NCBI GenBank assembly: GCA_002753735.1
Contig: PEAN01000037.1
Span: forward strand, 1-36,648
DNA from: Magnetococcales bacterium DCbin4
GTDB lineage: Bacteria; Pseudomonadota; Magnetococcia; Magnetococcales; UBA8363
Reading direction: 5' to 3'
Length of the DNA stretch: 36,648 bases
Each line of letters starts with the position of its first letter. The first letter of the stretch is position 1. This document shows positions 1-31,898 of the stretch, one piece after another. The position numbers and the translations under genes are program-made. The notes under the pieces are model-generated. The model was not told the origin of the DNA. It saw nothing but the letters and a program-made list of their open reading frames with translations, and searched no databases.

Positions 1-41
1 AAAAACCACGCGGGAAGATCGCTTCGGGTGAAATGGCGCGT

Positions 42-150
42 AAAAAACAAAATCAAAATCAAAGTCAAAGTCCTGGGGGCAATCCCTTAAGCCCCCTTTT
101 TTCTTTCAATAATTTTTCGAGTGTCAACAATCCCTGATTAATGAATGTGA
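42..150 (+). repeat. Dispersed modular repeat, copy A (hexamer tract plus terminator-like hairpin)
   Basis: An A-rich tract of AAAATC/AAAGTC-type hexamers (about 46-72) is followed by a hairpin with arms GGGGGC (75-80) and GCCCCC (91-96), a 10-nt loop, and T6 (97-102). The tail starting CTTTCAATAAT and the later TGTCAACA are also found in the copy next to secD. The hairpin and T-run have the form of a rho-independent terminator on the plus strand, probably ending a gene that lies left of the window. Related copies are at 11828-12160 and 31899-32095. Confidence 0.75.
75..102 (+). terminator. Intrinsic terminator-like hairpin within repeat copy A
   Basis: A perfect 6-bp GC stem (75-80 with 91-96) closes a 10-nt loop and is followed by six T. 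It lies 70 bp before the msrQ start, so msrQ probably has its own promoter between 103 and 172 or depends on read-through. Confidence 0.7.
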
Positions 151-172
151 CAAAGTAGAAATAAGGTAGGCC

Positions 173-808
173 ATGCGTATTCTGACCGGGATATGGGTGC
201 TGATGGGACTCCTCCCCTTGGGGTGGATGCTGCACGGGGCCTGGACAGAAACTCTGGGGGCCAATCCGATTGAACGCATCCTCCGTGTCAGTGGCGATTG
301 GACCCTGTGGCTGTTGCTGTTCACCTTGAGTCTGGCGTTACTGCGCCAGGTGCCAGGATGTGCCGGTATCCTGCGCTGGCGGCGCATGGCGGGGTTGTTC
401 ACCTTCTTTTATGCCGCGTTGCATCTGTCAAGCTATGTGGTGCTGGACAAATTTTTTGCTTGGCAGGACATCCTGCTGGATCTACGTAAACGACCCTATA
501 TCACCTTGGGAATGACTGCATTTGTTCTGTTACTCCCTTTGGCCATGACCTCCACGCGGGGGTGGATGAAACGCCTGGGAAAATACTGGAAACGGTTACA
601 TCGTTTGGTTTATATCGCAGCCATTCTGGGAGTGGGCCACTTCTTTCTGATGGTCAAGGCTGATTGGCGTTCGCCAGCCCTGCATGGTGGCGTGCTGCTG
701 TTGCTGTTGGGTTGGAGGGTGTGGACCAGAAGATCGGTAGCCCCATCGCACATGTTCACGCCAGGAAATGTGCGACAGAACCAAACTATTGGTAGTCAAA
801 TTCATTGA
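173..808 (+). CDS. msrQ: MsrQ, haem-binding membrane subunit of the MsrPQ methionine sulfoxide reductase
   Basis: MsrQ is the inner-membrane b-type cytochrome that passes electrons to periplasmic MsrP for repair of oxidised methionines. The 211-residue product has about six membrane segments and the ferric-reductase-like pattern. Candidate haem ligands are His84 (in ALHLSSYVV), His143 and His156 (in GVGHFF), spaced as in the YedZ/MsrQ family. Length fits the family. The ATG follows AAGGTAGGCC. msrP usually precedes msrQ, but here the upstream side is a terminator-like repeat, so msrP is not directly coupled on that side; it may be elsewhere. The 3' end overlaps the convergent downstream gene by 23 bp. 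Family assignment is firm; its partner is not visible. Confidence 0.9.
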   Translation: MRILTGIWVLMGLLPLGWMLHGAWTETLGANPIERILRVSGDWTLWLLLFTLSLALLRQVPGCAGILRWRRMAGLFTFFYAALHLSSYVVLDKFFAWQDILLDLRKRPYITLGMTAFVLLLPLAMTSTRGWMKRLGKYWKRLHRLVYIAAILGVGHFFLMVKADWRSPALHGGVLLLLLGWRVWTRRSVAPSHMFTPGNVRQNQTIGSQIH

Positions 809-1928
809 CCCGCCATTGATCCATGTTTTGCACAATTTCCTGCAAAATTTCCATTCTGAATACCCTGAAGATCACCTTGGGATCGATTCCGGCATCCAAA
901 ATTCCAATCTGTTGCAAAAATTTCAACTTCCTTGCAATCGATCCATCGGGTTGCAAACTTTCCGGAGGGATCATGGTCATGGGAAGGGGATCCAACAGGT
1001 CACGGTTGAGAATCACCTGGCATTGACTCACGCTGAGAGGATAGGATTCCTTGAGAAACGCTTCCGCCAGGGCAATATGCCATTGGCAGGCTTGGTAGGA
1101 ATGTTCCTGGCTTCGGCCCATCCAACGAACCGCACGAAGATTGGCGGCGGTCAGAAGCTTGACAATCTCCGGATGGCCATCAAAGATGGACTTTGAGAAA
1201 TAAAGATAACTATAGGTCAACGCACGGTACAGTACCGTTAGATCCTCGATCTGATCCGTCGCCAGCGTGACGGTCGGTTCCCAGATGGCAAAAGCGTCGA
1301 TGGTCCCCTTTTTCATGGCATCGATCATCTGATTCACTGGCATCTTGACCAGTTGAACATCTTTTTCGACGAGGTTATTCAATGCCAAACCATGAAGCAA
1401 AACCTGGTGGGCCGAAGACCCGGGGGCAACACCGATGCGCCGCCCCTTGAGCTGATCCATCGAAAACAGATGACGCGCGACTACCGAAGCAAATGCAGTC
1501 TTGACCTGAGCCGTGATGACAATTGGAATGTTTGCGGCTGCCTTGATGACCGGCATGTCGCCGGCCCACATGAACTCCAATGCCCCGGAAAAAAGAAAGG
1601 TATTGATGTCCCCCCCCTCCAGAAACGGATGAAACTTCAGACTTTTCCCGAGTTCATCCAACTGCCGTAGAAGGATGCGATCCCGCATCATGACCGCAGG
1701 AATGGTTCCTGAGGGAATGGAGATCGGCTGATAACCGACATCGATCAAAGGGCCTTCCGGTGTTCCGAAGACATAGCTCGCGTATCGATTGTTTTTTCCC
1801 CCGTCATCAGGTTGGGATACAACGCTGCCTCCTGTTCGGAATTGCATCGTATGGCCAGCGAACAGCCACAGGCATGCTCCGACCACCAACAAACCAAACA
1901 GGACCAGCATACCTTTGCGTACAAACAT
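786..1928 (-). CDS. ABC-type substrate-binding protein, NMT1/SsuA/THI5-like
   Basis: This is a 380-residue periplasmic-binding-protein-like product. It has an N-terminal hydrophobic signal or anchor (about residues 5-25), then an SsuA/NMT1 fold with characteristic stretches such as LKGRRIGVAPGSSAHQVL and GTIDAFAIWEP. The family binds small solutes such as sulfonates, taurine, nitrate or thiamine precursors; the ligand cannot be told here. The frame stays open to 2153, but I chose the ATG at 1928 because AGGGGGGAG lies 4-6 nt upstream and the signal sequence follows directly. No permease or ATPase gene is adjacent, so it is an orphan that may pair with a distant transporter or a sensor. It converges on msrQ with a short overlap. 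Confidence 0.8.
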   Translation of the reverse strand: MFVRKGMLVLFGLLVVGACLWLFAGHTMQFRTGGSVVSQPDDGGKNNRYASYVFGTPEGPLIDVGYQPISIPSGTIPAVMMRDRILLRQLDELGKSLKFHPFLEGGDINTFLFSGALEFMWAGDMPVIKAAANIPIVITAQVKTAFASVVARHLFSMDQLKGRRIGVAPGSSAHQVLLHGLALNNLVEKDVQLVKMPVNQMIDAMKKGTIDAFAIWEPTVTLATDQIEDLTVLYRALTYSYLYFSKSIFDGHPEIVKLLTAANLRAVRWMGRSQEHSYQACQWHIALAEAFLKESYPLSVSQCQVILNRDLLDPLPMTMIPPESLQPDGSIARKLKFLQQIGILDAGIDPKVIFRVFRMEILQEIVQNMDQWRVNEFDYQ

Positions 1929-2153
1929 GATCTCCCCCCTTTGGGCTTCCATGTTGACCAGGCATGAGTCGCATGTGAACGGTTCCGTAAACGGACCATT
2001 TCTATTAATTATAATTGTCCGTCCATTGTAGCCGAACCAGACGGACATGCCAAATATTTTTTTATTTTTCCAGAAGATGAGGAGGATATGTTCAAGGTGG
2101 GCAAGATCGATCCGATCCGATTCCATCATCATCAATCTTAACATTGATAACAA

Positions 2154-2181
2154 TTGACATGATAATTATTTATTTTATCAT
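2154..2181. promoter_or_regulatory. AT-rich palindrome with overlapping promoter-like boxes
   Basis: Arms ATGATAA (2159-2165) and TTATCAT (2175-2181) form an inverted repeat with a 9-nt centre. TTGACA (2154-2159) and TATCAT (2176-2181) are separated by 16 nt, a good sigma-70-like match reading plus. No plus-strand gene follows, so it may drive an antisense or small transcript, or the palindrome may be an operator (loosely Fur-like) for the minus-strand binding-protein gene, whose start is about 230 bp away. Otherwise 1929-2230 holds no gene that I can support. Confidence 0.35.
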
Positions 2182-2230
2182 GAGCTGCCAGTAAAGCCAT
2201 TCCAAATGCCCGTTACGGGTTCCCACCCGA

Positions 2231-2262
2231 AAAAAATACCGGGAGGAGATGACCTCCCCCCG
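2231..2262 (-). terminator. Intrinsic terminator of the rhodanese gene
   Basis: On the minus strand, arms GGGAGG and CCTCCC (2253-2258 with 2241-2246) enclose a 6-nt loop, and a T-rich run follows (complement of 2231-2237). It lies about 30 bp beyond the rhodanese stop codon. Confidence 0.75.
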
Positions 2263-2292
2263 GACTCTTGGCCCCCACCCCACCATGATCGG

Positions 2293-2925
2293 TTATTTCA
2301 CCAGCGGCAAACCTGCGTCCACCCAGTCCTGGTTACCACCACGGAACCAATAGATTTTACCCGGGTATTGGATTTCCTGAAGTGCCTTGATCCCCTGAGG
2401 GCTTTGACCACACCACCAGCCATTGCAGAAGACGATGATGTCCTTGTCTTCCAACTTTTTCACCTTGGCCTTCGCCTTGGTGGCACTGGAGGTCAAATCG
2501 CTGTAGGGAAGGTTGACGGATCCCGGAATCGTCCCCTTTTCAAACCAGTCAGGCGTTCTCATATCGACAATCAGTATTTTGCCACTGTTGATATCAGCCG
2601 CCATTTTGACAAAATCTTCCATCTTGAACAGGGTTGCGCCCGCGACCTCCTCTGGCTGAACACAGAAAGGTTTGCATTTGCGAACCGAGGGATCCTTGAA
2701 ATCGTCGGGAACGGGTGTTGCCCGATCCTGCTTCATCTCATGACCATTCAAGGTAAACGGAGCCAGCGTAACCCCCTTGGCATAGGATTGCTCTTTGTCA
2801 GCCACCTCCTTTCCCAGAGGAACCCCATCGGTTGCAGCCCCCTCAGCCGCCAGGACCGATGAGCTCCAACCCAACATGGCCGCAAAAATCGCACCCACCA
2901 TCCACAAACCTTTTTTGTATATCAT
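2293..2925 (-). CDS. Periplasmic rhodanese-domain protein
   Basis: The product has 210 residues. A signal peptide (about 1-27, ending SSVLAA) is followed by a short region with a Cys pair at 84 and 88 (CKPFC), then a rhodanese domain (about 100-208). The substrate loop begins at Cys167 in VFCNGWWCG, so a second Cys (172) sits in the catalytic loop. Rhodanese domains carry persulfide sulfur on the loop Cys, or act as redox or binding modules; the true substrate is unknown. DMRTPDWFEKGTIPGSVNLPY is the usual first-half rhodanese signature. The ATG is preceded by GGGAGAG. A terminator follows the gene, so it looks monocistronic. Confidence 0.85.
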   Translation of the reverse strand: MIYKKGLWMVGAIFAAMLGWSSSVLAAEGAATDGVPLGKEVADKEQSYAKGVTLAPFTLNGHEMKQDRATPVPDDFKDPSVRKCKPFCVQPEEVAGATLFKMEDFVKMAADINSGKILIVDMRTPDWFEKGTIPGSVNLPYSDLTSSATKAKAKVKKLEDKDIIVFCNGWWCGQSPQGIKALQEIQYPGKIYWFRGGNQDWVDAGLPLVK

Positions 2926-3304
2926 GTTCCACTCTCCCGTCGGATTAACTGCGTTCTAGCACATGAAACTTGCTCACCCCCCTTACGGACACCACCTTTT
3001 TTTCCTGCTTCATGATTGGTTCTAAGCCCAAATTATGGGCAAATGCTAGAAGATTCCATCCTTATACCTCATTAAAAAATTTTAATTTACTAAGTTCATA
3101 CAGGGTGAGAATATGTAAATAAGGTTCAATTTCAAAGATTATCATGGAAAAAATCGCCCAAAGCGGCACTATTTCTTTCATTCCCAACAGTGCAGTCACC
3201 CGTTAAAGCACAAATATTCAACGTTATTTTCTTGTGCCCTTTGCATCACATTCAATACGGAACAACAGGCACTGGACAAACAGAGAAGAGTTTCTTCATG
3301 ATCA
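2926..3304. other. Intergenic region between divergent rhodanese and histidine kinase genes
   Basis: This 379-bp AT-rich stretch separates two divergent genes and must hold both promoters. The most noticeable element is the inverted repeat GCCCA-AATTA-TGGGC (3026-3040), a candidate operator. I see no convincing sigma-54 promoter (TGGCAC-N5-TTGC) and no RNA gene. Confidence 0.4.
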
Positions 3305-6190
3305 TTGATCGTGTGCTTCATCCCCCTGTGCAAAGATAAGGCTCCTGCCGTGCCATCTCCCGCTCCTTCCAGCATTACCACACGATTCATCGTAACCTTC
3401 AGTCTGTTGTTCATTATCATATTTGCCATCTCCACCTGGATATTCATGCATGGATTTCCAGGAAGCACCTTTTTGGGATGGAGTGGAGATGAAAGAAATC
3501 AAGCCATTCATACGATCAACATCCTAGCCGACATGCAAAAAACAAGAATACTGCATATGTTCAAGGAGTTACGTACGGATGCCGGGTTCCTTGCCCAGGA
3601 CCGGTTCATGAAGGAGACCCTGAACGAAGAACTCCTGCCCAAACCTTCTGATCCACCCGAAGCCATCTCCTCATCGACGTTTCATGATGCCCATGGCCCT
3701 TACCTGGAGACCTGGTTGCGGGAATTTCAATCCGACGCCCCGTTCTACCAGGACATTCACATTCTGCATATGCAAACGGGTCAGATCATCGCCTCCACCA
3801 ACCCGAGAATGCTCCACCAGGTTTTGCTCACACCCGAATTCATTGAGCGGGTCAAGACGACACGGCAGGATTACATTGGCGGTTTCACCCCGATCCCCGC
3901 CCCCAAGACCTTTTTTGTAGGGTGTCCCATGTTTCTGACCCGGGAAGACCCCTTGGCGTTGGTCGTGCTGGAAATTTCGCTGCAATCCTTTCTCCAGCCC
4001 ATTCATGCCTTCACCAAGGGTCCGTGGCGCACATCGGTGGAGACCATCCTTGTCGATGAACGCGGTTTGAATCTATTCCATCCAGATGAAACCAGGAACG
4101 TCAACGAGCAGGATTTCCTGGACAACGACAACATCAGCTTGTTGCCCTCAAAAATCGCCGCCAATGGTCAAGAAGGATTCATCGAGACCCAGGATCAACA
4201 CAACATCTCCGTGCTGGCCGGCTACCGCCACATCCGCCTGTTTTCCGAATGGAGCTGGGGATTGGTCATCCAGATGGGACGTGATGACCTGATGCAACCG
4301 ATGTCCACCGCCTTCGGCTTTGCCTGGTTTATCGGCTGCATGGCGACCGGAGCCTTTATCCTCGTCGCCTTCATCCTGACCCGCCGGCTGACCCGTCCCT
4401 TGCGTCAACTCACCGAAGCAGCCCATCAATTGACGGCGGGTCATCGACATGTCCGCAGTCAGCACAGCGGCACGGATGAAGTCGGCGTTCTGGCCAAAGC
4501 GTTCGACACCATGGCCGAGGAAGTAACCAGAACCCTGGATCATCTGGAACGGACCGTCGCCCATCGTACCATTGCCCTGGCCAGGGAACTGGACATCAGA
4601 AAGCAGCAACAACAAGCGCAACAGGTCATCGAAACATCGCTCAAGGAAAGTGAACATCGATACCGCTCCCTGGTCGATACCATGACCGCCGGTGTCGCCG
4701 TCTACGAAGCGGTGGAAGGAGGAAATGATTTCGTCATCCGGGACATCAACCGGATGGGAGAACATCTGACCCGGCTCGAAAAACAAGCGATCATCGGCAG
4801 CAGAGTCACAGAAGTCTTTCCAGGGATCTTCGAATTCGGCCTGCTCACGGTATTCCAACACGTCTACAGGACTTCACTTCCTGCCAGCCATCCTGTCGCG
4901 CTCTACAGCGATCAACGACTGGAACAATGGTTTGAAAATCGTGTTTACAAGCTCCCTTCCGGCGAAATTGTTGCCATTTTCGATGACATCTCCGAACGCA
5001 AGCTGGCTGAAGATGCATTAAAACTGGTCCAATTCTCAGTCGACAACACCCATGATGCCATGCTGTGGTTCACTCAGACAGGCCGTATCCTCCGAACCAA
5101 CCGGGCCGCTTCAGAGATGCTTGGATATTCCCAGGAAGAATTGCTCACCTTGTCGGCGAGCGATCTCCACGAAGAGATGACCCGGGAGGCATGGAATCAA
5201 TCCTGGAGGGAAATTCAGCAAACAGGAACCCGGATCTACATGGCCAACCTGCGTCGCCGGGATCGTTCCCAATTCCCGGTGGAAATCAGCGCCAGCTACC
5301 TGCAAGGAGAACACACCAAGCCCGACCATTTGTTCATCAGTGTCCGCGACATCACCGAACGCATACGCGGCGAAAAAGAAAAACAAACCCTGGAACAAAT
5401 GGCGTTCCACCGTGAACGTCTTGCCACCATCGGCACTCTGGCGGCAGGGGTGGCCCATGAAATCAACAATCCCAATAATGCCATCCTGTTCAACGCAGTC
5501 ATGCTCCAGGGGTTTTGGCCCGATCTCGAACTGCTGCTGCGCCAGGCCATGGACGAACATGGCGATTTTCTGCTGGCCGATTTACCCGCTTCCGAAAGTT
5601 TAATCACCCTTCCCCGACTGTTTGAAGGGATTCGAAAAAGTTCCGAACGGATCCAGAGCATCATCGGCAATCTCAAACATCTTTCCCGGCAAAATCCCAC
5701 CCCCATCAGCAAACCTGTTGAAATCAATACTGTTCTTCGAGAAACCACGGTCATTCTTCAAGGACAGATCACTCGCCATACCGATCATTTTCACATGCAG
5801 CTCCTGGATCAACCCGTCATGGTTCCGGGAAACAGCCAGCAGTTGGAACAGGTATTCATCAACCTGGTATTAAATGCCCTGCAATCCCTCCCCAATCGCA
5901 ACCATGCCGTCCGCGTTTCCATGGTACGGGAACCCGATTCCAGCAAGGTTCAAGTGATCATCTCCGATGAAGGGATCGGGATTCCCGAGGAACACATGGG
6001 ACAGCTGACCAACCCCTTTTTCACCACCAAATTGGAACAGGATGGCACCGGACTGGGTTTATCCATTGCCAATTCCATCATTGTCAATCATAGCGGTCAA
6101 CTGTCCTTTGAATCCCGGGAACAACGTGGAACCATCGTCACAGTCACTTTGCCCACCATTGTCATGCAAAAACGGGGAGACCACCCATGA
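3305..6190 (+). CDS. Membrane sensor histidine kinase, Cache-HAMP-PAS-PAS-HisKA-HATPase
   Basis: The product is about 961 residues. TM1 is at about 27-47, a Cache-type periplasmic sensor at about 50-330, TM2 at 335-358, HAMP at 359-411, PAS at about 450-565 and PAS/PAC at about 570-690. The kinase core has an H-box with phosphorylatable His718 (GVAHEINNP), an N-box at 851-860 (FINLVLNALQ), G1 (DEGIGIP, 888-894) and G2 (GTGLGLS, 914-920). It is an NtrB/DctB-style kinase expected to phosphorylate the next gene's product, whose ATG overlaps this stop by 4 nt. The start is uncertain: TTG at 3305 is the longest, while GTG at 3350 has AAGG about 8 nt upstream and keeps TM1. The ATG at 3298 is out of frame. 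The ligand is unknown. Confidence 0.9.
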   Translation: MIVCFIPLCKDKAPAVPSPAPSSITTRFIVTFSLLFIIIFAISTWIFMHGFPGSTFLGWSGDERNQAIHTINILADMQKTRILHMFKELRTDAGFLAQDRFMKETLNEELLPKPSDPPEAISSSTFHDAHGPYLETWLREFQSDAPFYQDIHILHMQTGQIIASTNPRMLHQVLLTPEFIERVKTTRQDYIGGFTPIPAPKTFFVGCPMFLTREDPLALVVLEISLQSFLQPIHAFTKGPWRTSVETILVDERGLNLFHPDETRNVNEQDFLDNDNISLLPSKIAANGQEGFIETQDQHNISVLAGYRHIRLFSEWSWGLVIQMGRDDLMQPMSTAFGFAWFIGCMATGAFILVAFILTRRLTRPLRQLTEAAHQLTAGHRHVRSQHSGTDEVGVLAKAFDTMAEEVTRTLDHLERTVAHRTIALARELDIRKQQQQAQQVIETSLKESEHRYRSLVDTMTAGVAVYEAVEGGNDFVIRDINRMGEHLTRLEKQAIIGSRVTEVFPGIFEFGLLTVFQHVYRTSLPASHPVALYSDQRLEQWFENRVYKLPSGEIVAIFDDISERKLAEDALKLVQFSVDNTHDAMLWFTQTGRILRTNRAASEMLGYSQEELLTLSASDLHEEMTREAWNQSWREIQQTGTRIYMANLRRRDRSQFPVEISASYLQGEHTKPDHLFISVRDITERIRGEKEKQTLEQMAFHRERLATIGTLAAGVAHEINNPNNAILFNAVMLQGFWPDLELLLRQAMDEHGDFLLADLPASESLITLPRLFEGIRKSSERIQSIIGNLKHLSRQNPTPISKPVEINTVLRETTVILQGQITRHTDHFHMQLLDQPVMVPGNSQQLEQVFINLVLNALQSLPNRNHAVRVSMVREPDSSKVQVIISDEGIGIPEEHMGQLTNPFFTTKLEQDGTGLGLSIANSIIVNHSGQLSFESREQRGTIVTVTLPTIVMQKRGDHP

Positions 6191-7617
6191 AAGGCACCGA
6201 CAACCGGAACCCTCCCATCATTCTGGTGGACGACGAGGAGGAAATCCTGTTCAGTTCCAAAACCCAGTTACGGCTGGCCGGAATCGATCCGGTCGTCACC
6301 ATGAACGATGGTCGCGAATTGATCAGCTTCATCGATACCCATGGTGCGGCCCTGGTGGTTCTTGACCTGATGATGCCCCATTGTTCGGGTGAAGAACTGC
6401 TCAAGGAGTTGATGCAACGATTTCCCGCGATTCAAGTCATCATCATGACCGCCAACCAGGATATCGAACGCGCCGTCGCCTGCATCAAGGAGGGGGCCTC
6501 CGATTATCTGGTCAAACCCGTCGAAAACAATCGTTTCGTCGCCGCAATCAGACAATTGATGGAAGTCCGCCGGTTGCGCCAGGAAGTTGGAACCCTCAAG
6601 GAAGCATTGTTTTCAGAAAAACAGACCCATCACAAGGCATTTGCCACCATGCTCACCCAGAGCAAGACGATGCATCGCATTTTTCAATATGCCGAAGCCA
6701 TCGCCCCCTCTCAGGAACCGGTCCTGGTCATGGGAGAAACCGGAGTGGGAAAGGAACTGATGATCCAGGCCATTCACACGTTGAGCGGTCGTATGGGACC
6801 GTTGATCCCGGTCAATGTTGCCGGCCTCGATGACACCATGTTTTCCGATACCCTGTTCGGCCACCGGAAAGGGGCCTATTCAGGTGCCACGGAACATCGC
6901 AAAGGACTGATCAGCCAAGCCCAGGGAGGATCACTGTTCCTCGATGAGATTGGCGACCTGACCCCGACCTCGCAGGTCAAACTATTGCGCCTGATCCAGG
7001 ACCGGCGCTATTACCCCCTGGGATCCGATCTGGCCCAACAAACCGATGCCAGAATCCTGTGCGCCACCCACCGGGATCTGAGCACCCGCATGAAAAACAA
7101 TTTATTTCGTTCCGATCTTTATTTCCGCCTGTCAGCGCATCAACTCACCCTGCCCCCGTTGCGGGATCGCAAAGAGGATCTCCCCCTCTTGACGCGACAT
7201 TTTCTCCAGGAAGCATCGGAAAACCTGAAAAAACCGGTTCCCGGTCTACCTCATGAACTGTTCAATCTTCTCTACGCCCATGATTTCCCGGGAAATATTC
7301 GTGAACTGCGGGCCATGATTCATGACGCCTTGGCCCGGCATGGTACGGGCACTCTGTCCTTGACCAGCCTGAAGGCAACCATCGCAAATCGGAATGCGAA
7401 CCCGCTGAACCACACGACATTGGATGCCCTGCCTCCAAGAATCAGTTTTCATGGCCGTCTCCCCACCATTCAGGAAGCAGAAGAATTTCTCATTCAGGCA
7501 GCCTTGGAGCTCGCGCATGGCAACAAAAGCCTCGCAGCCACCCTGTTGGGGATCACCCGGCAAACCCTGAACAACAAACTCCGTCGGCAGGAAGAGGAAG
7601 AATCATCGCGATTTTGA
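6187..7617 (+). CDS. Sigma-54-dependent response regulator, NtrC family
   Basis: The product has 476 residues. The receiver domain (about 10-125) carries the acidic pocket at 15-17 and phospho-acceptor Asp60 (VVLDLMMP), with Lys110 in LVKPV. The AAA+ domain (about 155-390) has Walker A GETGVGKE (183-190) and Walker B GSLFLDE (248-254). The sigma-54 contact loop reads GAYSGA (229-234) instead of the usual GAFTGA. A Fis-type helix-turn-helix closes the protein (about 444-467, NKSLAATLLGITRQTLNNK). It activates RNA polymerase-sigma-54 at promoters that cannot be seen here. The ATGA overlap with the kinase marks them as a cognate pair. Targets are unknown; the TAXI lipoprotein and the pilus genes are neighbours, not demonstrated targets. 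Confidence 0.93.
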   Translation: MKGTDNRNPPIILVDDEEEILFSSKTQLRLAGIDPVVTMNDGRELISFIDTHGAALVVLDLMMPHCSGEELLKELMQRFPAIQVIIMTANQDIERAVACIKEGASDYLVKPVENNRFVAAIRQLMEVRRLRQEVGTLKEALFSEKQTHHKAFATMLTQSKTMHRIFQYAEAIAPSQEPVLVMGETGVGKELMIQAIHTLSGRMGPLIPVNVAGLDDTMFSDTLFGHRKGAYSGATEHRKGLISQAQGGSLFLDEIGDLTPTSQVKLLRLIQDRRYYPLGSDLAQQTDARILCATHRDLSTRMKNNLFRSDLYFRLSAHQLTLPPLRDRKEDLPLLTRHFLQEASENLKKPVPGLPHELFNLLYAHDFPGNIRELRAMIHDALARHGTGTLSLTSLKATIANRNANPLNHTTLDALPPRISFHGRLPTIQEAEEFLIQAALELAHGNKSLAATLLGITRQTLNNKLRRQEEEESSRF

Positions 7618-7621
7618 GCGT

Positions 7622-8638
7622 TCAGGGACCCTGTTTCCCCTCGATGGAAAACCACCCCTTTTCCGCATAATACTTCAAGGCACCATTGTGGTAGGGGACA
7701 CTGAACTGTGGCAGCATCTCTTTGGGTGACAGGTGATGGAAGGCGGGGTGATTTTGACGAAGTTCATCCAGATGCTCAAACACCCCCTCAGCGATCAGAT
7801 GAGCCGCCTTCTCAGACACATCAATGGTCGTCAGAACCCACAGACGCACCCCAAACGAGGGAACCGACGTACTGACCCCGGGATAGATCGCCCCTGGAAT
7901 GACCGCCCTGTCATAGTAGGAGCGTTCATCCACCATTTTTTCGATGCAGCTTTCCGTCAAGGGAAGAACCCCCAAAGGGTGCGCCCGTGCCACAATCGTC
8001 AAGGCGTCGTCAGGGTGGCTCAACAGGGAAAAAAACGAATCGCTGGCACGACGGCTCAACCCCTGAGAAAGCCGCTCCATTTTCTTGTCATCGACAAGCG
8101 TCAAATCGGAGGTGGAAATCTTACAGGTTTTGAGCAGTTCCAGGACCACCCGTTCATTATCCGGTTCTGAAATATCGACATGAATCTTCCTGCCGGAAAC
8201 CGATCTGAAGGTGGTTACATCAGCATCCTTGGGAACGACCAGGGTCACGACCTCCTGGTTCAACGCAAACAAGACTCTAAGCTTGGTAAACCGCTCCTTG
8301 AACGGAGCCTGACCGTACCAGGCGCGATACACCGTATCCGCCCGGGCAATACCAAACTCAACCTTTCCCTCCTGCAGCGCCAGAAGATTATGGGTTGATC
8401 CATCACTGACCAACGATTCACAGGGAATCTTTCCCGTTTCCTTGCCCTTGGCCAAGGTCTGACAAATGGCATTCCCAGCGATGTAGAAAAGACTGGCCTG
8501 ACTGCCCGACCCCAGACTGATTCGCTCGATGATCTGTTCATCAGCAGTCTCGACTTTGTCTTCCCCGTGAAAACAGGCGGAAAGAAAAACCTGACTGGCA
8601 ACGACCAAAACTCTGACCAGGATTCCGATCATTCCCAT
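7622..8638 (-). CDS. TAXI-family TRAP transporter solute-binding lipoprotein
   Basis: The product is about 338 residues. The signal peptide ends in a lipobox (LSAC), so it is predicted to be a lipoprotein. The body matches the TAXI solute-binding family: SLGSGSQASLFYIAGNAICQTL near the N-terminus and then a QEGKVEFGIARADTVYRAW-type segment. Relatives feed TRAP transporters with carboxylates or amino acids such as glutamate. I chose ATG 8638 because TGAGG lies 6 nt upstream; a TTG at 8650 is possible. No TRAP membrane subunit is nearby. It is convergent with the sigma-54 regulator with a gap of only 4 bp, so it may serve as a periplasmic binding partner of the adjacent Cache kinase (inference). 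Confidence 0.85.
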   Translation of the reverse strand: MGMIGILVRVLVVASQVFLSACFHGEDKVETADEQIIERISLGSGSQASLFYIAGNAICQTLAKGKETGKIPCESLVSDGSTHNLLALQEGKVEFGIARADTVYRAWYGQAPFKERFTKLRVLFALNQEVVTLVVPKDADVTTFRSVSGRKIHVDISEPDNERVVLELLKTCKISTSDLTLVDDKKMERLSQGLSRRASDSFFSLLSHPDDALTIVARAHPLGVLPLTESCIEKMVDERSYYDRAVIPGAIYPGVSTSVPSFGVRLWVLTTIDVSEKAAHLIAEGVFEHLDELRQNHPAFHHLSPKEMLPQFSVPYHNGALKYYAEKGWFSIEGKQGP

Positions 8639-8835
8639 TCCATGCCTCAATCATTTGCATCCAGAACTACAACGCCCAACCAATTTTTGCCACAAGGCTA
8701 CCATGCCCCCCCGCAGGTTGTCCAAGTACACAATGTCCCATGCACCGCACGATCCTGTTGACAAAGCTTGCGCACGGCATGAACTCATGGGTATGCTTCA
8801 TCATTCGTCGATTCACCCCATCGAGCAGGCATGGC

Positions 8836-9945
8836 ATGAACGCAAACAACGTCACCGCCCCATCCTCCGAACCTCAATCCTTGTTTTTGCGTGCCTGCCT
8901 GGGCCTTGATGTCGCCCAGACCCCTGTCTGGCTGATGCGCCAGGCGGGACGCTATCTACCCGAATACCGGGAGGTCCGACGTCAAGCGGGCAGTTTTCTC
9001 GCTTTGTGTAAAAACCCCGAACTGGCGGCGCGTGTCACCCTGCAACCCATCGAACGGTTCGGCTTGGATGCCGCCATTTTGTTTTCTGATATTCTGGTCA
9101 TTCCCGAAGCGATGGGGATGGAGCTGCATTTTCTCGAAGGAGAAGGCCCCCACTTTCCCCATCCCCTGACCCGTCTGGCCGATCTGGATCGGCTGAACCT
9201 GCCCGACCCTGAAGTCCAACTGGGCTATGTCATGGGCGCCATCGATGAAATTCGTCGCCAACTCCCTTCTTCCACCCCTTTGATCGGTTTTTCCGGTTCG
9301 CCCTGGACCCTCGCCACCTACATGATTGAAGGGGGATCCAGCAAAAAATTCGCCCAGATCAAAACCGCTCTTTATGACGACCCCCCCTTCCTGGAAGGAT
9401 TGCTGGAACGACTGGTCACCGCCGTGGTCCATTACCTCAATGCCCAGATCGATCATGGGGTACAGGCAGTGCAAATCTTTGACACCTGGGGTGGCATTCT
9501 GGGACCGGATGAGTATCGCCGGTTTTCTTTGGAACCGATGACACGCATCATCGCCGGTCTCAAACGACGCCGCCCCGATGGTACCCGGGTACCCGTCATT
9601 CTGTTTTCCAAAGGATGCGGTGGTTATCTGGAAACCATAGCCACTTCAGGATGCGATGTCGTGGGACTGGACTGGACGACCCCACTGGGTCAGGCACGCG
9701 CTCGCCTGGGCCCCAAATTCGCCCTTCAGGGCAATCTTGATCCGGCAGTGCTTTATGCCTCACCCAAACGGATTCACGCCGAAGTTCGCCGGGTGCTGGA
9801 ATCACTGGGCAACCAGAATGGACATATCTTCAATCTGGGACATGGCATGGAACCCAATCTCGATCCTGAAAAGGTTCCCATACTCATCGCTGCGGTGCGT
9901 GAGGAAAGCAAACGGATCCGCGGGCAATCGTCAACGCACGTATGA
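8836..9945 (+). CDS. hemE: Uroporphyrinogen decarboxylase
   Basis: HemE decarboxylates the four acetate side chains of uroporphyrinogen III to give coproporphyrinogen III in cytoplasmic haem synthesis. The 369-residue product shows the family signatures PVWLMRQAGRYLPEYR near the N-terminus, then GFSGSPWTLATYMIEG, FDTWGG, LQGNLDP and FNLGHG. The upstream frame is open to 8740, but the ATG at 8836 gives the normal family length and has AGG about 6 nt upstream. It stands alone, divergent from the TAXI gene and convergent with the receiver gene. No other haem gene is in the window. Assignment is secure. Confidence 0.96.
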   Translation: MNANNVTAPSSEPQSLFLRACLGLDVAQTPVWLMRQAGRYLPEYREVRRQAGSFLALCKNPELAARVTLQPIERFGLDAAILFSDILVIPEAMGMELHFLEGEGPHFPHPLTRLADLDRLNLPDPEVQLGYVMGAIDEIRRQLPSSTPLIGFSGSPWTLATYMIEGGSSKKFAQIKTALYDDPPFLEGLLERLVTAVVHYLNAQIDHGVQAVQIFDTWGGILGPDEYRRFSLEPMTRIIAGLKRRRPDGTRVPVILFSKGCGGYLETIATSGCDVVGLDWTTPLGQARARLGPKFALQGNLDPAVLYASPKRIHAEVRRVLESLGNQNGHIFNLGHGMEPNLDPEKVPILIAAVREESKRIRGQSSTHV

Positions 9946-10019
9946 TCCCTTTGTCATCTTTGGGGAACAGGAACATTCAAAACAACACTTCACGACACGA
10001 AGTCCAACGCAATGGCGGC

Positions 10020-10394
10020 TCAATGGGCAAGCAGATCAGCAACCGCACTGCGAAGATCCTCTGCTGAGAACGGTTTCGTCAACACCCGCATTGCCCCGAA
10101 ATCCTTTGCCATGTCCAGATTGAACGTCGCATCCAGGCCACGTCCCCCACCCGACATGGCAATGATGCGCACATTGGAAAAGCTTTCCGTCATCTCCAAA
10201 ATCAATTCAACCCCATCCTTGACCGGCATCAAAATATCGGTGATCACCAGATCGAAGGGGTGTTTGCGATAGAGCTGGATCCCTTCATCCCCATTCTGGG
10301 CCTCTTGAAGCCGGTGCCCATCCTCACCTTCAAGAACAGCCCGCAAATAGGCACGAATAATCGGATCGTCATCGATGATCAGTATGTGTGCCAA
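10020..10394 (-). CDS. CheY-like single-domain response regulator
   Basis: The 124-residue product is just one receiver domain: an acidic pocket at residues 8-10 (IIDDDP), phospho-acceptor Asp53 (VITDILMP), the switch Ser/Thr in IAMSGG, and Lys in LTKPF. It has no output domain, so it probably works by protein-protein contact in a phosphorelay or motility/pilus control. The start is a TTG (10394) giving the usual MAHILIIDDD N-terminus, with only a weak AGGGG about 12 nt upstream. No kinase gene is adjacent. It lies 64 bp after the small gene that follows secF and may be cotranscribed. Confidence 0.85.
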   Translation of the reverse strand: MAHILIIDDDPIIRAYLRAVLEGEDGHRLQEAQNGDEGIQLYRKHPFDLVITDILMPVKDGVELILEMTESFSNVRIIAMSGGGRGLDATFNLDMAKDFGAMRVLTKPFSAEDLRSAVADLLAH

Positions 10395-10458
10395 AAAAAG
10401 AACCCCTGCAAAAAGAAAGAATAACGAACCTCCACAACGCTACGGCCAACCATACACA

Positions 10459-10848
10459 TCAGTGCGATTTGGTATCGCCTTCACCACCCTGGGTCAAATG
10501 ATAGGCGGCCACCGAAGCTTCTTCGACTTCGCGAATCATCTCCTGTTTGGATCGGACCAACAGATCCATGGGAATGCCTGTGGCCTTGGCGATGTTCTTC
10601 AACCCTTCAGAATTTTGAAAATGACGGGTCGCCAAGGTAATCTTGACATAATCATCAAGAATGACGTTTCGAAATCCTTCATCCGCCACCATGGTCAAAC
10701 CATCGACCACCTTGTTCCAGGCAGTTTTCGCTGCAATCGCCTTTTCAATTGCCGCCATCGCCTGATCATAGATGCGATTGTCCTCTTCGGAATAGCCGGG
10801 ATCGGCCACACGAAACCGCAATTGATAATCATCCGTGCCACCACTCAT
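10459..10848 (-). CDS. Uncharacterised small protein coupled to secF
   Basis: I do not recognise this 129-residue protein. It is soluble, with no signal peptide or membrane segment, and rich in Asp, Glu and Ala with predicted helices (for example DQAMAAIEKAIAAKTAWNK). The ATG overlaps the secF stop by 4 nt, so it is translationally coupled to secF. Codon use resembles that of its neighbours. Position suggests a role tied to membrane protein export or simple cotranscription; sequence alone does not say which. Confidence 0.75.
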   Translation of the reverse strand: MSGGTDDYQLRFRVADPGYSEEDNRIYDQAMAAIEKAIAAKTAWNKVVDGLTMVADEGFRNVILDDYVKITLATRHFQNSEGLKNIAKATGIPMDLLVRSKQEMIREVEEASVAAYHLTQGGEGDTKSH

Positions 10849-11786
10849 GACCCACCTCCCTGGGATTTCGATGCGCCGGCCGTCCCGCCAGACCGTTTTT
10901 TCTCGAAGAACAACACAATGGGACTGGCAACGAAAATGGAGGAATAGGTCCCCACGATGATGCCAAAGAGCAACGTCAGGGAAAAGTCGTGAATCACCTC
11001 GCCCCCAAAGAAAAACAACGCCACCAACACCAACAATACCGTCCCCGAGGTGATGATGGTACGCGACAAGGTTTGATTGATGGCGATGTTGATGACTTCG
11101 GCCAGATCCATTTTTTTGCGCCGCTTCATCTCTTCGCGAATACGGTCATACACGACGATGGTATCGTTGATGGAATATCCCACCAAGGTCAAAATGGCAG
11201 CGACGATCACCAGGGTGAATTCCTTTTGCAACATCGATAACAGACCCACGGTGACAAAAGCGTCGTGGATCAGGGCGATGATGGCGCCATAGGAGAAACG
11301 CAGTTCGAATCGCCACGCCACATAGATGAGGATGGCGACCATGGAATAGAGCATCGCCATGAACCCCTGTCGCACCAATTCCTGCCCCACCTGGGGTCCA
11401 ACGAATTCGACCCGGCGCAACTCCACCGACCTGTTGCTGGCCAACGGTTCCAGAATGCTGACGATTCGTTGCGCCAATTCACTGGGCTTGCCCCCGACTT
11501 CGGACTGTTTTTCCACTCGGATGATAATTTCCTCGCGCGCGCCGAATTCCTGGATCACCACATCTCCCAAACCAAGTTCAGCCAAGGCAGCACGGATTTC
11601 AGGCAAGGGAGGTGGCGCCTGAAAGCGGACCTGAACCAGGGTCCCTCCCGAAAAATCGATGCCGGGATTCAACCCTTGTGTCGCCAGAGAAATGGCGCCG
11701 GCGACGATCATCAGGCCGGAAAGAATATAGGCGACCCAGCTGAAACGAACGAAGTCGAGATGGATTTTGGTCGAGATCAGTTCCAT
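10845..11786 (-). CDS. secF: Protein translocase subunit SecF
   Basis: SecF works with SecD and YajC in the inner membrane to complete Sec-dependent export using the proton gradient. The 313-residue product has the N-terminal membrane segment, the GLNPGIDFSGGTLVQVRF signature before the periplasmic domain, and five further membrane segments containing SINDTIVVYDRIREEM. Length is normal. It follows secD in the same orientation, but 376 bp of repeats separate the two genes, where adjacency is usual. The downstream gene overlaps its stop by 4 nt. Confidence 0.97.
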   Translation of the reverse strand: MELISTKIHLDFVRFSWVAYILSGLMIVAGAISLATQGLNPGIDFSGGTLVQVRFQAPPPLPEIRAALAELGLGDVVIQEFGAREEIIIRVEKQSEVGGKPSELAQRIVSILEPLASNRSVELRRVEFVGPQVGQELVRQGFMAMLYSMVAILIYVAWRFELRFSYGAIIALIHDAFVTVGLLSMLQKEFTLVIVAAILTLVGYSINDTIVVYDRIREEMKRRKKMDLAEVINIAINQTLSRTIITSGTVLLVLVALFFFGGEVIHDFSLTLLFGIIVGTYSSIFVASPIVLFFEKKRSGGTAGASKSQGGGS

Positions 11787-12162
11787 GATTCAATCAGGAT
11801 TCCCTGTCAGATCATCAATCAACGATTAAGAAAAAAGGAGGTCTCAAGGGATTGCCCCAAGGTTTTTACTTTGGTGACCGATCAAAATCAATCAAGAAGA
11901 ACCTTGGGGGACTTCGTCCCAATCCCCCTGTGGAGGATGAAAAATAAAATCAAAGTCAAAGTCAAAATCCAAATCAAAACCCTGGGGGCAATCCCTTGAG
12001 ACCCCTTTTTAAAAGAAAAACCTTAATTTTTGTCGTCCCCCAAACCCCCTGTGGGGGATGTAAAAACAAAGTCAAAATCCAAATCAAAATCAAAACCCTG
12101 GGGGCAATCCCTTGAGACCCCTTTTTTCTTTCAATAATAATTATTTTGAATGTCAACATCCC
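11787..12162. repeat. Repeat cluster between secD and secF (three copies, two orientations)
   Basis: This stretch contains no gene. Two units of the dispersed repeat read plus (about 11894-12010 and 12018-12160), and a partial unit reads minus (about 11828-11873). Modules in order are an ACCTTGGGGGACTTCGTCCC hairpin, CCCCCTGTGGGGG-type hairpin, an AAAATC/AAAGTC/AAATCC hexamer tract, and a GGGG...CCCC hairpin plus T-run. The tail CTTTCAATAAT...TGTCAACA beside secD matches copy A at the left edge. The minus-reading copy would put a weak terminator-like hairpin (complement of 11832-11865) ahead of secF in the direction of transcription. Confidence 0.8.
12100..12127 (+). terminator. Terminator-like hairpin of the repeat next to secD
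   Basis: G5 (12100-12104) can pair with CCCC (12118-12121) ahead of T6 (12122-12127) on the plus strand, opposite to secD transcription. A second such hairpin is at 11984-12010. They are more likely parts of the repeat than terminators of secD. Confidence 0.45.
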
Positions 12163-13755
12163 CTAGATACTCAATGATTTGAGCCGCCTGTTTTTAACAA
12201 TCATGGCCAATACCACCCGGGTGACGAAGATGGCGGTAAACATGGAGGCGATCAAACCAATTGACAAGGTTACGGCAAACCCCTTCACCGGTCCAGTGCC
12301 GAACTGAAACAACACGACAGCGGTGATCAGGGTGGTCAGATTGGAGTCGAGAATGGTAACAAACGCCGTATCGTAACCATGATCGATGGCAGCCAGAGGG
12401 GTACGACCGAGATGCAACTCTTCCCGGATACGTTCAAAGATCAAAACGTTGGCATCGACCGACATCCCCATGAGCAATACCATGCCGGCAATACCCGGAA
12501 GGGTCAGCGTGGCCTGGATCCAAGCCAGGATGGCCATCAGGACGATGATGTTCAAGACCACCGCCACGTTGGCCAACCAACCAAACGCTTTGTAGTAGAT
12601 GCCCATGAAAACGATCACCAGAGCGCCACCGATCAAGACCGACATCATCCCCTGGGCGATGGAATCGCTGCCCAGAGTGGGACCGACGGTACGCTCCTCC
12701 AGGATGGTCACCGGGGCGGGCAAGGCACCGGCACGCAGAATGATGGCCAGATCGTGGGCCTCTTCGGTACTGAAACTGCCGCTGATCTGCGCCCGGCCAC
12801 CATCGATCCGTTCGCGAATCACCGGGGCGGAATAGACCGTGCCATCCAGGACGATGGCCATCCGTTCCCCCACATGTTCGCCGGTCAACTGACCGAATTT
12901 GCGCCCCCCCTGACTGTTGAAATTAATGGATACGTAGGGTTCGTTGAACTGGGTGTCGAAATTGACCCGGGCATCGGTCAGGAGATCACCGGATAGAACA
13001 GTCCGTTTTTTCAGGAGATAGGGTTGTCGGGTTTTTTGGCCCGTGGCCCGGTCAACCTGTTCGCCGTAAAGTAGGATATCCCCGGGGGGGATACGTCCTT
13101 CGATGGCACCGGCGAGATCCCCTTTTTCATCGACCATTTTGAATTCAAGCCGCGCGGTGCGCCCGATCAACGCCTTGGCCCGGGTCGGATCCTTCAATCC
13201 GGGGAGTTGGACCAGAATGCGGTCCTCACCCTGTTTTTGAATGGTCGGTTCCGCCACCCCGAACTGATCGATGCGGGAGCGGATGGTCTGTATGGACTGT
13301 TCCACCGCAAACCCACGGATTTCCTTTTGGTTTGTTTCGGAAATGCTCAACCGCAAGGTCGTACCGTCATCCTCGGTGGAGAAATCGACGTTCATGATTT
13401 CCGCCGCCAGGGCCTTCTGGACCTGCGCGACTTCGGATGCCTGGGACAATTTGACGATGACCGAATCGGTCCCCGCATGCTCCACCCCCTTGTAGCGCAG
13501 TTTTTCCTTGCGCATGACCCCACGGACATCATCCACCATGTTTTCGGCGGCCTGTTCCACCGCTTTTCCCGACTCCACATGGAGCAGGAGATAAAGCCCG
13601 CCCTGGAGATCCAATCCCCGGGCAATGACCTGTTGCGGCAGCCAGGAAGGCCACCAGGGGGGAACCCCGCCCAACAGGCTGGGGGCAGCATACAACAAGG
13701 AAATCAGCGTCACGAGCACCACAGTCGCCGGTTTCCACCAGGGAAGTTGTTTCAT
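12163..13755 (-). CDS. secD: Protein translocase subunit SecD
   Basis: SecD is the large subunit of the SecDF-YajC complex. The 530-residue product has an N-terminal membrane segment, the signature GLDLQGGLYLLLHV, the P1 periplasmic domain, and a C-terminal block of membrane helices with SVDANVLIFERIREEL. Length is typical of shorter proteobacterial SecD proteins. It lies 29 bp downstream of yajC. The expected next gene, secF, is displaced by the repeat cluster. Confidence 0.97.
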   Translation of the reverse strand: MKQLPWWKPATVVLVTLISLLYAAPSLLGGVPPWWPSWLPQQVIARGLDLQGGLYLLLHVESGKAVEQAAENMVDDVRGVMRKEKLRYKGVEHAGTDSVIVKLSQASEVAQVQKALAAEIMNVDFSTEDDGTTLRLSISETNQKEIRGFAVEQSIQTIRSRIDQFGVAEPTIQKQGEDRILVQLPGLKDPTRAKALIGRTARLEFKMVDEKGDLAGAIEGRIPPGDILLYGEQVDRATGQKTRQPYLLKKRTVLSGDLLTDARVNFDTQFNEPYVSINFNSQGGRKFGQLTGEHVGERMAIVLDGTVYSAPVIRERIDGGRAQISGSFSTEEAHDLAIILRAGALPAPVTILEERTVGPTLGSDSIAQGMMSVLIGGALVIVFMGIYYKAFGWLANVAVVLNIIVLMAILAWIQATLTLPGIAGMVLLMGMSVDANVLIFERIREELHLGRTPLAAIDHGYDTAFVTILDSNLTTLITAVVLFQFGTGPVKGFAVTLSIGLIASMFTAIFVTRVVLAMIVKNRRLKSLSI

Positions 13756-13784
13756 GATCGACCAACCCGTGTTTCGAGGTAAAG

Positions 13785-14180
13785 TTACTTGGGTTTATCC
13801 TCGGACTTTTCTTCCTTGCTGTCCGAAACGGGTTGCGTCCCAGCCTTGGCGGTCACCAGGGAGATGGTACTGCGGCGAACCTTGACCCGGAGGGGACGAA
13901 AGCTTTTGTCACCTACTTCCACCTCCCCGAGTTCCACCATGACGGTATCATCCTCGACCCGATGCACCTTGCCGAGCAATCCCCCACCCGTCATGATCGA
14001 ATCGCCACGCTGAAGGTTTTGCAGCATTTCCTTGTGGACTTTTTGCTGTTTTTGTTGCGGACGGATCAGGAGAAAGTAGAAAATGGCAAACAGGAGCACC
14101 ATGAAAATGATGTTGCCAATGGCCGCCTGGGTCCCGGAGGCACCCGATTGTGCATGCGCCGTGCTGATCAAATCAAACAT
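13785..14180 (-). CDS. yajC: Preprotein translocase accessory subunit YajC
   Basis: YajC is a small inner-membrane partner of SecDF. The 131-residue product has one membrane segment (IIFMVLLFAIFYFLLIRP) followed by the family motif RPQQKQQKVHKEM and a small cytoplasmic domain with GDSIMTGGGLLGKV. It opens the yajC-secD-secF cluster, as is common in bacteria. The C-terminus is extended with Lys, Glu and Ser. An intrinsic terminator-like hairpin lies about 80 bp upstream in the same orientation. Confidence 0.95.
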   Translation of the reverse strand: MFDLISTAHAQSGASGTQAAIGNIIFMVLLFAIFYFLLIRPQQKQQKVHKEMLQNLQRGDSIMTGGGLLGKVHRVEDDTVMVELGEVEVGDKSFRPLRVKVRRSTISLVTAKAGTQPVSDSKEEKSEDKPK

Positions 14181-14525
14181 CCAAGCACCTCGATGATCAT
14201 TTGGAAAGAATCAACCAAGTAGATAAGAATGGCCCTGTTATTGCATTCCACTTAAAGACAAAAAACAGTCGGCCTCCTCATGCCGACAACGACAATAGGA
14301 AGCTTGGTTGAACTTTTCAAGGTATGATCGCCATCCCGGGTTGGGAAATGATCGGAAATCACTTCAATAAGGAGGAGCGTCCCTGTTCCCATGCTTCACT
14401 CAGACCGGCGCCTATTGAAAACTTACGGGATATATGCCATCATGGCCTGAGTAGCGTTTTGAATGCATTGATTCCTTTCTGCCTCAACGGCCCCTTGCCT
14501 GAAAAAACGTCCCGGCGGATCTCCC
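14181..14525. other. Intergenic region between divergent yajC and HDOD genes
   Basis: This 345-bp region must hold the promoters of both divergent genes. Apart from the hairpin at 14258-14287 I see no gene. I looked for tRNA, SRP RNA and 6S-like features and did not find them. Confidence 0.4.
14258..14287 (-). terminator. Intrinsic terminator-like hairpin upstream of yajC
   Basis: GTCGGC (14268-14273) pairs with GCCGAC (14282-14287) over an 8-nt loop, and on the minus strand a T-rich run follows (complement of 14258-14265). No minus-strand gene ends here, so it is either a leader attenuator of yajC-secD or the end of a small RNA started further right. Confidence 0.55.
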
Positions 14526-15416
14526 ATGGCCTACTCTGAAACAGAATTGTTCTCCTTGATGGAAGGGATCCCCGCCTTTCCGCACAGTGGCTATCGTATT
14601 CTGCAACTGACCAACGATATCAACTGCCCGCCGAAAAAACTGGTTGAAGTGATCGAGCAGGATCCCATTTTGACGATGCATCTGCTGAAACTGGTCAATT
14701 CGAACTATTTCGGCCTGGCCAGGAAAATCACCTCCATCAAACAAGCAGTGGTTTTTCTTGGCCTCAACACCATGAAAAACCTGGCGCTGGCCATCGCCCC
14801 CATCGAACTCCTCACCGCCTCCAAGTCCCCAGCGGGCCCCCTGACCGGTGTGTTGCGCCACAGCCTGACCACCGCCATCATTGCCCGTAAACTGGCACGA
14901 AATCTGGGTTTTGCAGAGTCTGAAGCGACGGATGGTTATGTCGCAGGTCTCCTGCATGATTTTGGCAAGGTCGCCTTGTACAGGTTATTCCCTGGACAAT
15001 ACACCACCATTCTCGAACGAAGAGATCTCACCGAAACCGCCTTCATTGACCTGGAGTTGCGGGAAGTTTCGACCACCCATGCCGCCATCGGCGAACTCAT
15101 GGGGCGCCGATGGTCCCTGCCCGACCTGATCATTCAAAGCATGGGCGGGCATCACGATGCCGACCGATGCGCTGCTTCGCCCTTGCTCGCGTGTGTATTC
15201 GTCGCCAACCTGATTGCCCAAAAGATGGATCGTGGCCATTCCGGCAGGTCAACCCGGGGACTGTCCCTCCCCTCCTCCATGATCCATCATTTCGGCAAGG
15301 ATCTGGATGCTCTGACCGCTTCATTGGGTTTGATCGCCGACGAAATCGATCATGCATTGTTCTTGACCACCCTTCAGGAGGAAGGTCCAATGGCTCCATC
15401 CATGAGGCAACCATGA
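14526..15416 (+). CDS. HDOD-domain signalling protein
   Basis: The product has 296 residues, mostly a single HDOD domain (about 10-210). Recognisable segments are SLMEGIPAFPHSGYRILQL, VIEQDPILTMHLLKLVNSNYFG and TDGYVAGLLHDFGKVALY, followed by a C-terminal tail. HDOD is an HD-related fold that usually lacks nucleotide hydrolase activity and works in chemotaxis, c-di-GMP or stress regulation. The HD pair in LLHDFGK is present here, but the other metal-binding histidines of catalytic HD-GYP proteins are not obvious. The ATG of the MBL hydrolase overlaps its stop by 4 nt, indicating cotranslation. Confidence 0.88.
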   Translation: MAYSETELFSLMEGIPAFPHSGYRILQLTNDINCPPKKLVEVIEQDPILTMHLLKLVNSNYFGLARKITSIKQAVVFLGLNTMKNLALAIAPIELLTASKSPAGPLTGVLRHSLTTAIIARKLARNLGFAESEATDGYVAGLLHDFGKVALYRLFPGQYTTILERRDLTETAFIDLELREVSTTHAAIGELMGRRWSLPDLIIQSMGGHHDADRCAASPLLACVFVANLIAQKMDRGHSGRSTRGLSLPSSMIHHFGKDLDALTASLGLIADEIDHALFLTTLQEEGPMAPSMRQP

Positions 15417-16300: not shown

Positions 16301-16342
16301 TCCATGGGAACATGATCCTCAACCAGCGCTGCGATCATTCCC

Positions 16343-17353: not shown

Positions 17354-17404
17354 CACGACCCGATCCGGTCCCAAAGGATGTACGCCCACTTCATCGCATC
17401 AACC

Positions 17405-18064: not shown

Positions 18065-18088
18065 GCCAACACCCCGAAATGAATCCAT

Positions 18089-19717: not shown

Positions 19718-19821
19718 CGGACGGTCCTTCTCCGAATGAGGACGATGGATCATGGATTCACTTTCCGCCGTTTACAGTGAACGGCATTGTCGATGAATCA
19801 TTCCTGTTTTGCAAGTGGATC

Positions 19822-31888: not shown

Positions 31889-31898
31889 TCATTAATAG

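Follow-up and report, generated by a model that had tools for sequence, protein, structure and literature searches.

Several kinds of mobile repeat described in bacteria bear comparison with the elements analyzed here. The bacterial MITEs Correia/NEMIS, RUP, and ERIC, in the available portion of PMC2229807, are short and non-coding, have inverted ends and duplications, form a long RNA stem, lie between genes, and occur as length variants that differ by internal segments. REP and BIME sequences, with their RAYT transposases, are high-copy palindromes found near stop codons in convergent and co-directional spacers (PMC3733652, in extract). REPs are also targets of insertion sequences, so that mobile ends occur together with palindromic repeats (PMC1525189, in extract). 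TIMEs, which derive from Tn3, are mosaic and non-autonomous, and the IS701 family has ends with the consensus ---YACT-Y--YR and produces 4-bp repeats (PMC2266710, in extract).

The Magnetococcales repeats described below resemble the MITEs, REPs, and TIMEs in the respects just listed, and with the IS701 family they share ends that fit the consensus, next to a 4-nt YTAR-like flank. The analogy is in no case exact. Unlike the MITEs in the available portion of PMC2229807, their ends are of several unrelated types that are mixed on single elements, and their core is common to much of an order. Unlike TIMEs, they show no Tn3-type ends; a single hairpin core is instead bounded by IS-type ends of several kinds. 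Compared with the REP/BIME systems in the extract of PMC3733652, they are longer, have transposon-type ends with duplications, and show no link to a RAYT. They differ from the IS701 members of PMC2266710, as far as that extract goes, in carrying no transposase inside, and searches with the profiles PF03050, PF01610, and PF01797 gave no autonomous partner. Finally, in contrast to the REPs in the part of PMC1525189 that treats them as IS targets, their ends lie at constant positions on either side of the core, a few nested copies excepted. The family is new, although mobile repeats of this broad kind are known, and in sharing a core but not ends its members blur the usual rule of one IS family per MITE. 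A search of one literature library returned no report of these repeats in Magnetococcales; the MC-1 genome paper may contain a mention.

Results

Three copies in the window

The window is the whole of contig C16 (36,648 nt) of a Magnetococcales genome of 4,521,331 bases in 148 contigs. An initial annotation described three copies of one modular repeat in it, and sequence reading together with a repeat search of the window finds the modules it named in all three (Table 1). The search returned a 71-nt unit in four direct copies (43-113, 11952-12022, 12068-12138, and 32015-32085) and a 94-nt inverted pair (88%) at 12033-12126 and 31899-31992. Copy 1 is not a gene end followed by a repeat. Repeat sequence fills all of 1-160, which is the right arm of an element that the start of the contig truncates; positions 1-41 therefore represent neither a gene end nor a transposase 3' end. 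Its outer, IS701-like end lies at 138-160 on the reverse strand and matches the end pattern with 0 mismatches; a complete relative (L076:1988-2496) has 509 nt and is inverted-symmetric with nested palindromes. Copies 2 and 3 sit inside conserved gene pairs. Copy 2 starts right after the stop codon of secD (12163-13755, minus strand) and is followed by secF (10845-11786, minus), and copy 3 separates a pilB-like T2SSE gene (29156-31888, plus) from a pilC-like T2SSF gene (32110-33306, plus).

Table 1. Repeat features in the window, with the basis of each assignment
Feature	Position	Strand	Basis
Copy 1, long element of type C, right arm only, truncated by the contig start	1-160	+	Repeat coverage 1-166
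Copy 1, AAAATC/AAAGTC hexamer tract	48-72	+	Sequence reading
Copy 1, terminal hairpin GGGGGC-N10-GCCCCC, then T6	75-102	+	Local fold -13.1 kcal/mol, z -2.0
Copy 2, secD-secF element, two tandem core units	~11828-12162	-	Repeat coverage 11815-12172; Pfam SecD/SecF
Copy 2, module A, first: GGGGGACTTCGTCCC / CCCCCTGTGGAGG	11900-11936	+	Sequence reading
Copy 2, hexamer tract, first	11944-11981	+	Sequence reading and repeat search
Copy 2, hairpin unit, first	11982-12014	+	Local fold -7.4 kcal/mol, no better than shuffles
Copy 2, module A, second: CCCCC..CCCCCTGTGGGGG	12036-12060	+	Sequence reading
Copy 2, hexamer tract, second	12065-12097	+	Sequence reading and repeat search
Copy 2, hairpin unit, second, with T6	12098-12127	+	Local fold -7.4 kcal/mol, no better than shuffles
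Copy 2, outer end, E1 type (TGTTGACATTC on minus strand)	12128-12162	+	Sequence reading, comparison of copies
Copy 3, element between pilB-like and pilC-like genes	31888-32086	+	Repeat coverage 31881-32092; Pfam
Copy 3, left hairpin CTGGGGG/CCCCCAG	31910-31927	-	Fold -13.8 on minus strand
Copy 3, module A inverted: CCCCCACAGGGGG and GGGGGACGAAGTCCCCC	31968-32000	+	Inverted repeat, 97%
Copy 3, right hairpin, decayed (GGGAGC..GCCCCC), T6	32047-32074	+	Fold -5.9, z -0.05

A large family with a common core

The family is real and large in this genome of a magnetotactic-type bacterium. The 31-nt terminal hairpin, at no more than 3 mismatches, occurs 145 times (75 + 70), far more often than in the window alone. 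There are 137 occurrences (65 + 72) of the outer end TTCTACTTTGTNACATTCATTAA, and the reversed pattern of each gave 0. The 103-nt unit at 12033-12135 has 70 matches. Many contigs of assembly G000 start or end inside the long form of the element. Such breaks mean that the assembly undercounts the element, and they help to account for the fragmentation of these genomes.

The anatomy was drawn from the window and 80 stretches around copies in the same genome, taken from the matches listed and not from all 145 occurrences. The core consists of a hairpin, an AAAATC/AAAGTC tract, an optional inner module of which there are several kinds, a second tract, and the inverted hairpin. Element segments span about 60-560 nt, mostly 100-560 nt, and like MITEs they contain no transposase; at least three elements (L035, L060, and L076) are each represented by two segments. 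Terminal inverted repeats, a further MITE property, measure for example 44 nt at 100% in L059, and paired ends are present in L076, L107, and L200. Among complete forms with these ends, the shortest (mostly 168-172 nt) have one palindrome (L107, L201, L203, L214, and L215), which L207, of 72 nt, has lost. The hairpin beside T6 takes two forms, both also present in relatives: GGGGGC-N10-GCCCCC immediately before T6, as annotated initially, and CTGGGGG-CAAT-CCCCCAG, in which ACCCC separates stem from T6 and which is added here. The CTTTCAATAAT tail is present as described but is not the element terminus, since longer outer ends lie beyond it. Genome-wide copies, anatomy, and end pairs thus bear out the description of a modular, dispersed, MITE-like repeat. 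At the gathering score, Rfam gave 0 matches in the window and only a tRNA in six element loci, and plasmids and viral contigs had no match to the repeats.

Outer ends

The shared core is bounded by ends of several kinds, and differing ends can occur on one element (e.g. L028, L079, L082, and L200). The IS701-like end is TTCTACTTTGT(C/T)ACATTCATTAA, with two continuations, and 54 of 74 TTCTAC-type ends fit the IS701 consensus as it appears in the extract of PMC2266710. The IS66-like ends (GTAAC) are GTAACTGCCC (E2) and GTAACTATTCAG (E3). The ends GGCTCTTC(C/T)AGCGTT are classed as ISL3-like by what we take to be the ISL3 end motif. End sequences of the IS66/ISL3-like kinds include GTAACTGCCC and GGCTCTTCYAGCG; GTAACTGCCCGGGTACC and GTAACTATTCAGCACCCCC also occur as outer ends, and E1 (TGTTGACATTC) is a shorter type. 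The mixed ends suggest that the mosaic arises by recombination between copies that share the core. For some copies (L061 and L213), nested insertion is an alternative.

Empty sites and target duplications

The named relatives by SecF are Magnetococcales metagenome-assembled genomes (MAGs), the closest four being 72-78% identical. In the syntenic stretches of five of five relatives (G001 and G004-G007), the secD-secF spacer is element-free and 44-49 nt long, against 376 nt in the window. Similarly, the pilB-pilC spacer is element-free in four of four (G001, G004, G005, and G007), with 20-74 nt against 221 nt. The reverse case also occurs: an element in G004 adjoins the 10020-10394 ortholog, a position without an element in the window.

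The flanks of many elements resemble duplications. Among eight elements with IS701-like (TTCTAC) ends on both sides, TTAA stands on both sides in three, the two flanks differ at one position in three more, and two show no match. A YTAR flank, presumably the target rule for IS701-like ends, is found at 39 of 66 free ends of this kind (TTAA at 31), compared with 0.48% (TTAA, 0.30%) of intergenic 4-mers; TTAA flanks could partly be element sequence. For the five E2 (GTAACTGCCC) pairs, the 8-nt flanks agree at 8/8, 7/8, 7/8, 7/8, and 2/8 positions, so that four of five reach at least 7/8, as expected of IS66-derived MITEs if, as we assume, IS66 duplicates 8 bp. The single E3 (GTAACTATTCAG) pair agrees at 6/8. 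This evidence, often imperfect, covers the IS701-like, E2, and E3 ends and none of the E1 ends. Empty sites and target-site duplications, several of them imperfect, are thus both present, as in MITEs.

Placement relative to genes

Genes were called with a home-made caller, and 16 weak segments were excluded before 100 elements of the same genome were counted. None of the 100 lies inside a called gene, although the coding fraction is 0.82. There are 39 in tandem, 29 in convergent, and 3 in divergent spacers, the remaining 29 being unclassed at stretch edges. Element-free spacers of at least 20 nt in the same stretches divide into 58 tandem, 5 convergent, and 27 divergent (all element-free spacers, 107, 14, and 27). 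Relative to the spacers of at least 20 nt, the convergent excess has p = 4e-8 and the divergent deficit p = 2e-5 (Fisher). In 31 stretches from relatives, 33 elements show the same pattern, with 6 at edges, 0 in genes, and 15/11/1 in tandem/convergent/divergent spacers versus 15/2/6 element-free spacers (p = 0.012, convergent; p = 0.039, divergent). Mapping copies against genes therefore reveals a strong 3' bias, as the initial annotation had suggested, and not random placement.

At tandem sites in this genome, the median gap between element and upstream stop is 5 nt and that to the downstream start is 36 nt; the corresponding gaps in relatives are 45 and 130 nt. An open frame stops close to 34 of the 71 TTCTAC-type ends that have sufficient flank, and 9 of the 34 start right after the stop codon. 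YTAA occurs at 0.47 per kb in coding sequence; since it is rare in genes, target choice can explain part of the 3'-end bias. The rest would reflect selection against insertions in genes and promoters.

Distribution across genomes

A covariance model built from 20 sequences of the CTGGGGG/CCCCCAG hairpin, with two-sided changes in 2 of 6 pairs, has matches in 25 of the 48 genomes that represent the order. In a set of 249 genomes drawn from the phylum, it matches 25, all within the order. The family thus extends beyond the window and, among the genomes examined, is restricted to the order. A per-genome count is a lower bound once it reaches 122 in the order set or 23 in the phylum set. Seven genomes of the order hold at least 122 copies, and within one genus the number runs from 0 in G023, which is 100% complete, to at least 122 in G013. 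The 4.72-Mb single-contig genome G018 has weak DNA matches and none with the covariance model. In a genome from another family of the order, L018 (G019:C2:83073-86144) holds a tandem array of CCCCCAATCCCCCGGGGGGATGTAAAGAAAAGTC units, an apparent relative of the inner module.

Discussion

We consider it probable that the repeats are non-autonomous, MITE-like, mosaic transposable elements of Magnetococcales with a shared core and exchangeable ends. A common core, made up of a strong hairpin and AAAATC/AAAGTC tracts with or without inner palindromic modules, would be carried between outer ends that resemble at least two, and perhaps three, IS families (IS701-like, IS66-like, and ISL3-like). Transposases in trans would act on those ends to insert the elements, and recombination between copies would swap ends and modules. 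Two causes would make copies pile up at the 3' ends of genes: insertions into coding sequence or promoters are not tolerated, and YTAA, the target of the IS701-like type, is scarce in genes and can coincide with stop codons. Transcribed copies would form one long RNA hairpin, and some have a terminator-like local hairpin as well; any termination or trimming of transcripts would then be a by-product at some sites and not a demonstrated function of the family.

The same placement could instead mean that elements are kept at gene ends as recruited intrinsic terminators, possibly acting in both directions and chiefly where genes converge, which we regard as unlikely. It is true that hairpins with T-runs stand at both ends of elements, that short forms are a single complete palindrome (L203, -20.4 kcal/mol), that 29 of 71 elements lie in convergent spacers versus 5 of 90 element-free spacers of at least 20 nt, and that elements often fill convergent spacers nearly stop to stop. 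However, if a terminator-like hairpin is taken to be a local fold that reaches -9 kcal/mol no more than 3 nt from a T-run, at least one is present in only 17 of the 39 elements at tandem sites and 14 of the 29 at convergent sites (31 of 68 combined). Moreover, strong hairpins at tandem sites are as frequent in the sense as in the antisense direction (11 versus 10 of 39), a comparison that gives no sign of decayed sense-strand terminators in operon-type copies. Copies occur inside secD-secF and pilB-pilC, whose spacers do without them in relatives. The local hairpins of the secD-secF cluster (-7.3, -7.4, and -7.4 kcal/mol) are all no better than shuffles. Copy 1 has a strong one, and so does copy 3 on its minus strand, but not in its sense direction (Table 1). 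A terminator scan of 1-20000 gave 30 matches, within about 1.3 sd of shuffles, with a single element site, at 11861-11843 in the secD-secF copy (7 pairs, 3 G-C). The initial claim that the family supplies terminators is therefore weakly supported: about half of the elements carry a suitable hairpin, but those of both operon copies are weak, and strength does not follow context. With local hairpins in about half and sense equal to antisense, we do not attribute the spread of the family to termination. A role in double-strand RNA processing seems distinctly improbable. In this view, co-transcribed copies would form one long stem, which would either be cleaved in the manner proposed for NEMIS or shield the message upstream of it, and copies would be retained in operons for that purpose. 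The operon positions and the whole-element RNA folds of copy 3 (-89.6 kcal/mol, z -6.24) and copy 2 (-131.2, z -6.27) would agree with it, but so strong a fold follows automatically from the inverted symmetry of the elements, and the sites are not conserved between species.

Spread by a RAYT (Y1 tyrosine) transposase, as for REPs, is largely refuted, and we give it hardly any credence. Placement between unidirectional and convergent genes does match that reported for REPs in the extract of PMC3733652. Against this, the ends of the elements are of DDE type, with flanks that resemble 4- or 8-nt duplications, and element length far exceeds 20-40 bp. The sole Y1 transposase-like match in the genome is to PF01797, weak at 22.4 bits, and its 3.2-kb locus has no family motif apart from a weak 12-nt match to GTAAC. 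The elements have no linked REP-type transposase, as the initial annotation had stated, and of its label "REP/MITE-like" the second half holds; length, transposon-type ends, and the missing RAYT link speak against REPs in the strict sense.

To return to MITE-like elements moved in trans, the mobilizing enzymes would be of other kinds, and searches with PF03050, PF01610, and PF01797 found no autonomous element with these ends. Two full PF03050 (IS66) genes in the same genome have other ends (GTAAGCG; GTACCCGTTCAGACTCCCC), which rules them out as cognates of the GTAAC ends. The ISL3 profile PF01610 matched nothing in this genome and 4 of 14 control genomes. The GTACCCGTTCAGACTCCCC ends, which belong to the IS66-family transposase at L120 (G000:C146:40124), resemble, but are not identical to, the GTAACTATTCAGCACCCCC ends. 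Degenerate transposase remnants without a Pfam match, which we take to be IS4-like, lie at L220:680-1000 (G000:C127) and L244 (G000:C77). The L220 remnant directly adjoins a TTCTAC-type element end; it was dropped as an autonomous partner because its other copies and relatives lack such ends and Pfam names no family.

More tentatively, and with the odds somewhat against it, one hairpin core may be a cassette mobilized by several unrelated DDE transposases (IS701-, IS66-, and ISL3-like), its ends swapped by recombination in the core. If so, end-swapping would let one passenger sequence spread through an order via different enzymes in turn. The family also offers hundreds of natural insertions for testing the effects of hairpin repeats on operons, two of them (secD-secF and pilB-pilC) with empty orthologous sites.

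Other repeats in the window lie in long reading frames. Sixteen 21-nt-spaced repeats at 18543-18979, within a 554-residue frame (18089-19753, minus), are probably a 7-residue protein repeat. Tandem repeats of 12 nt occupy 16499-16603 and 28031-28090 (CTGTAAACCTTT-type; CCATCTTCCGGG), and imperfect 51/57-nt repeats are found at 25479-25728 in an 871-residue frame (23260-25875, minus).
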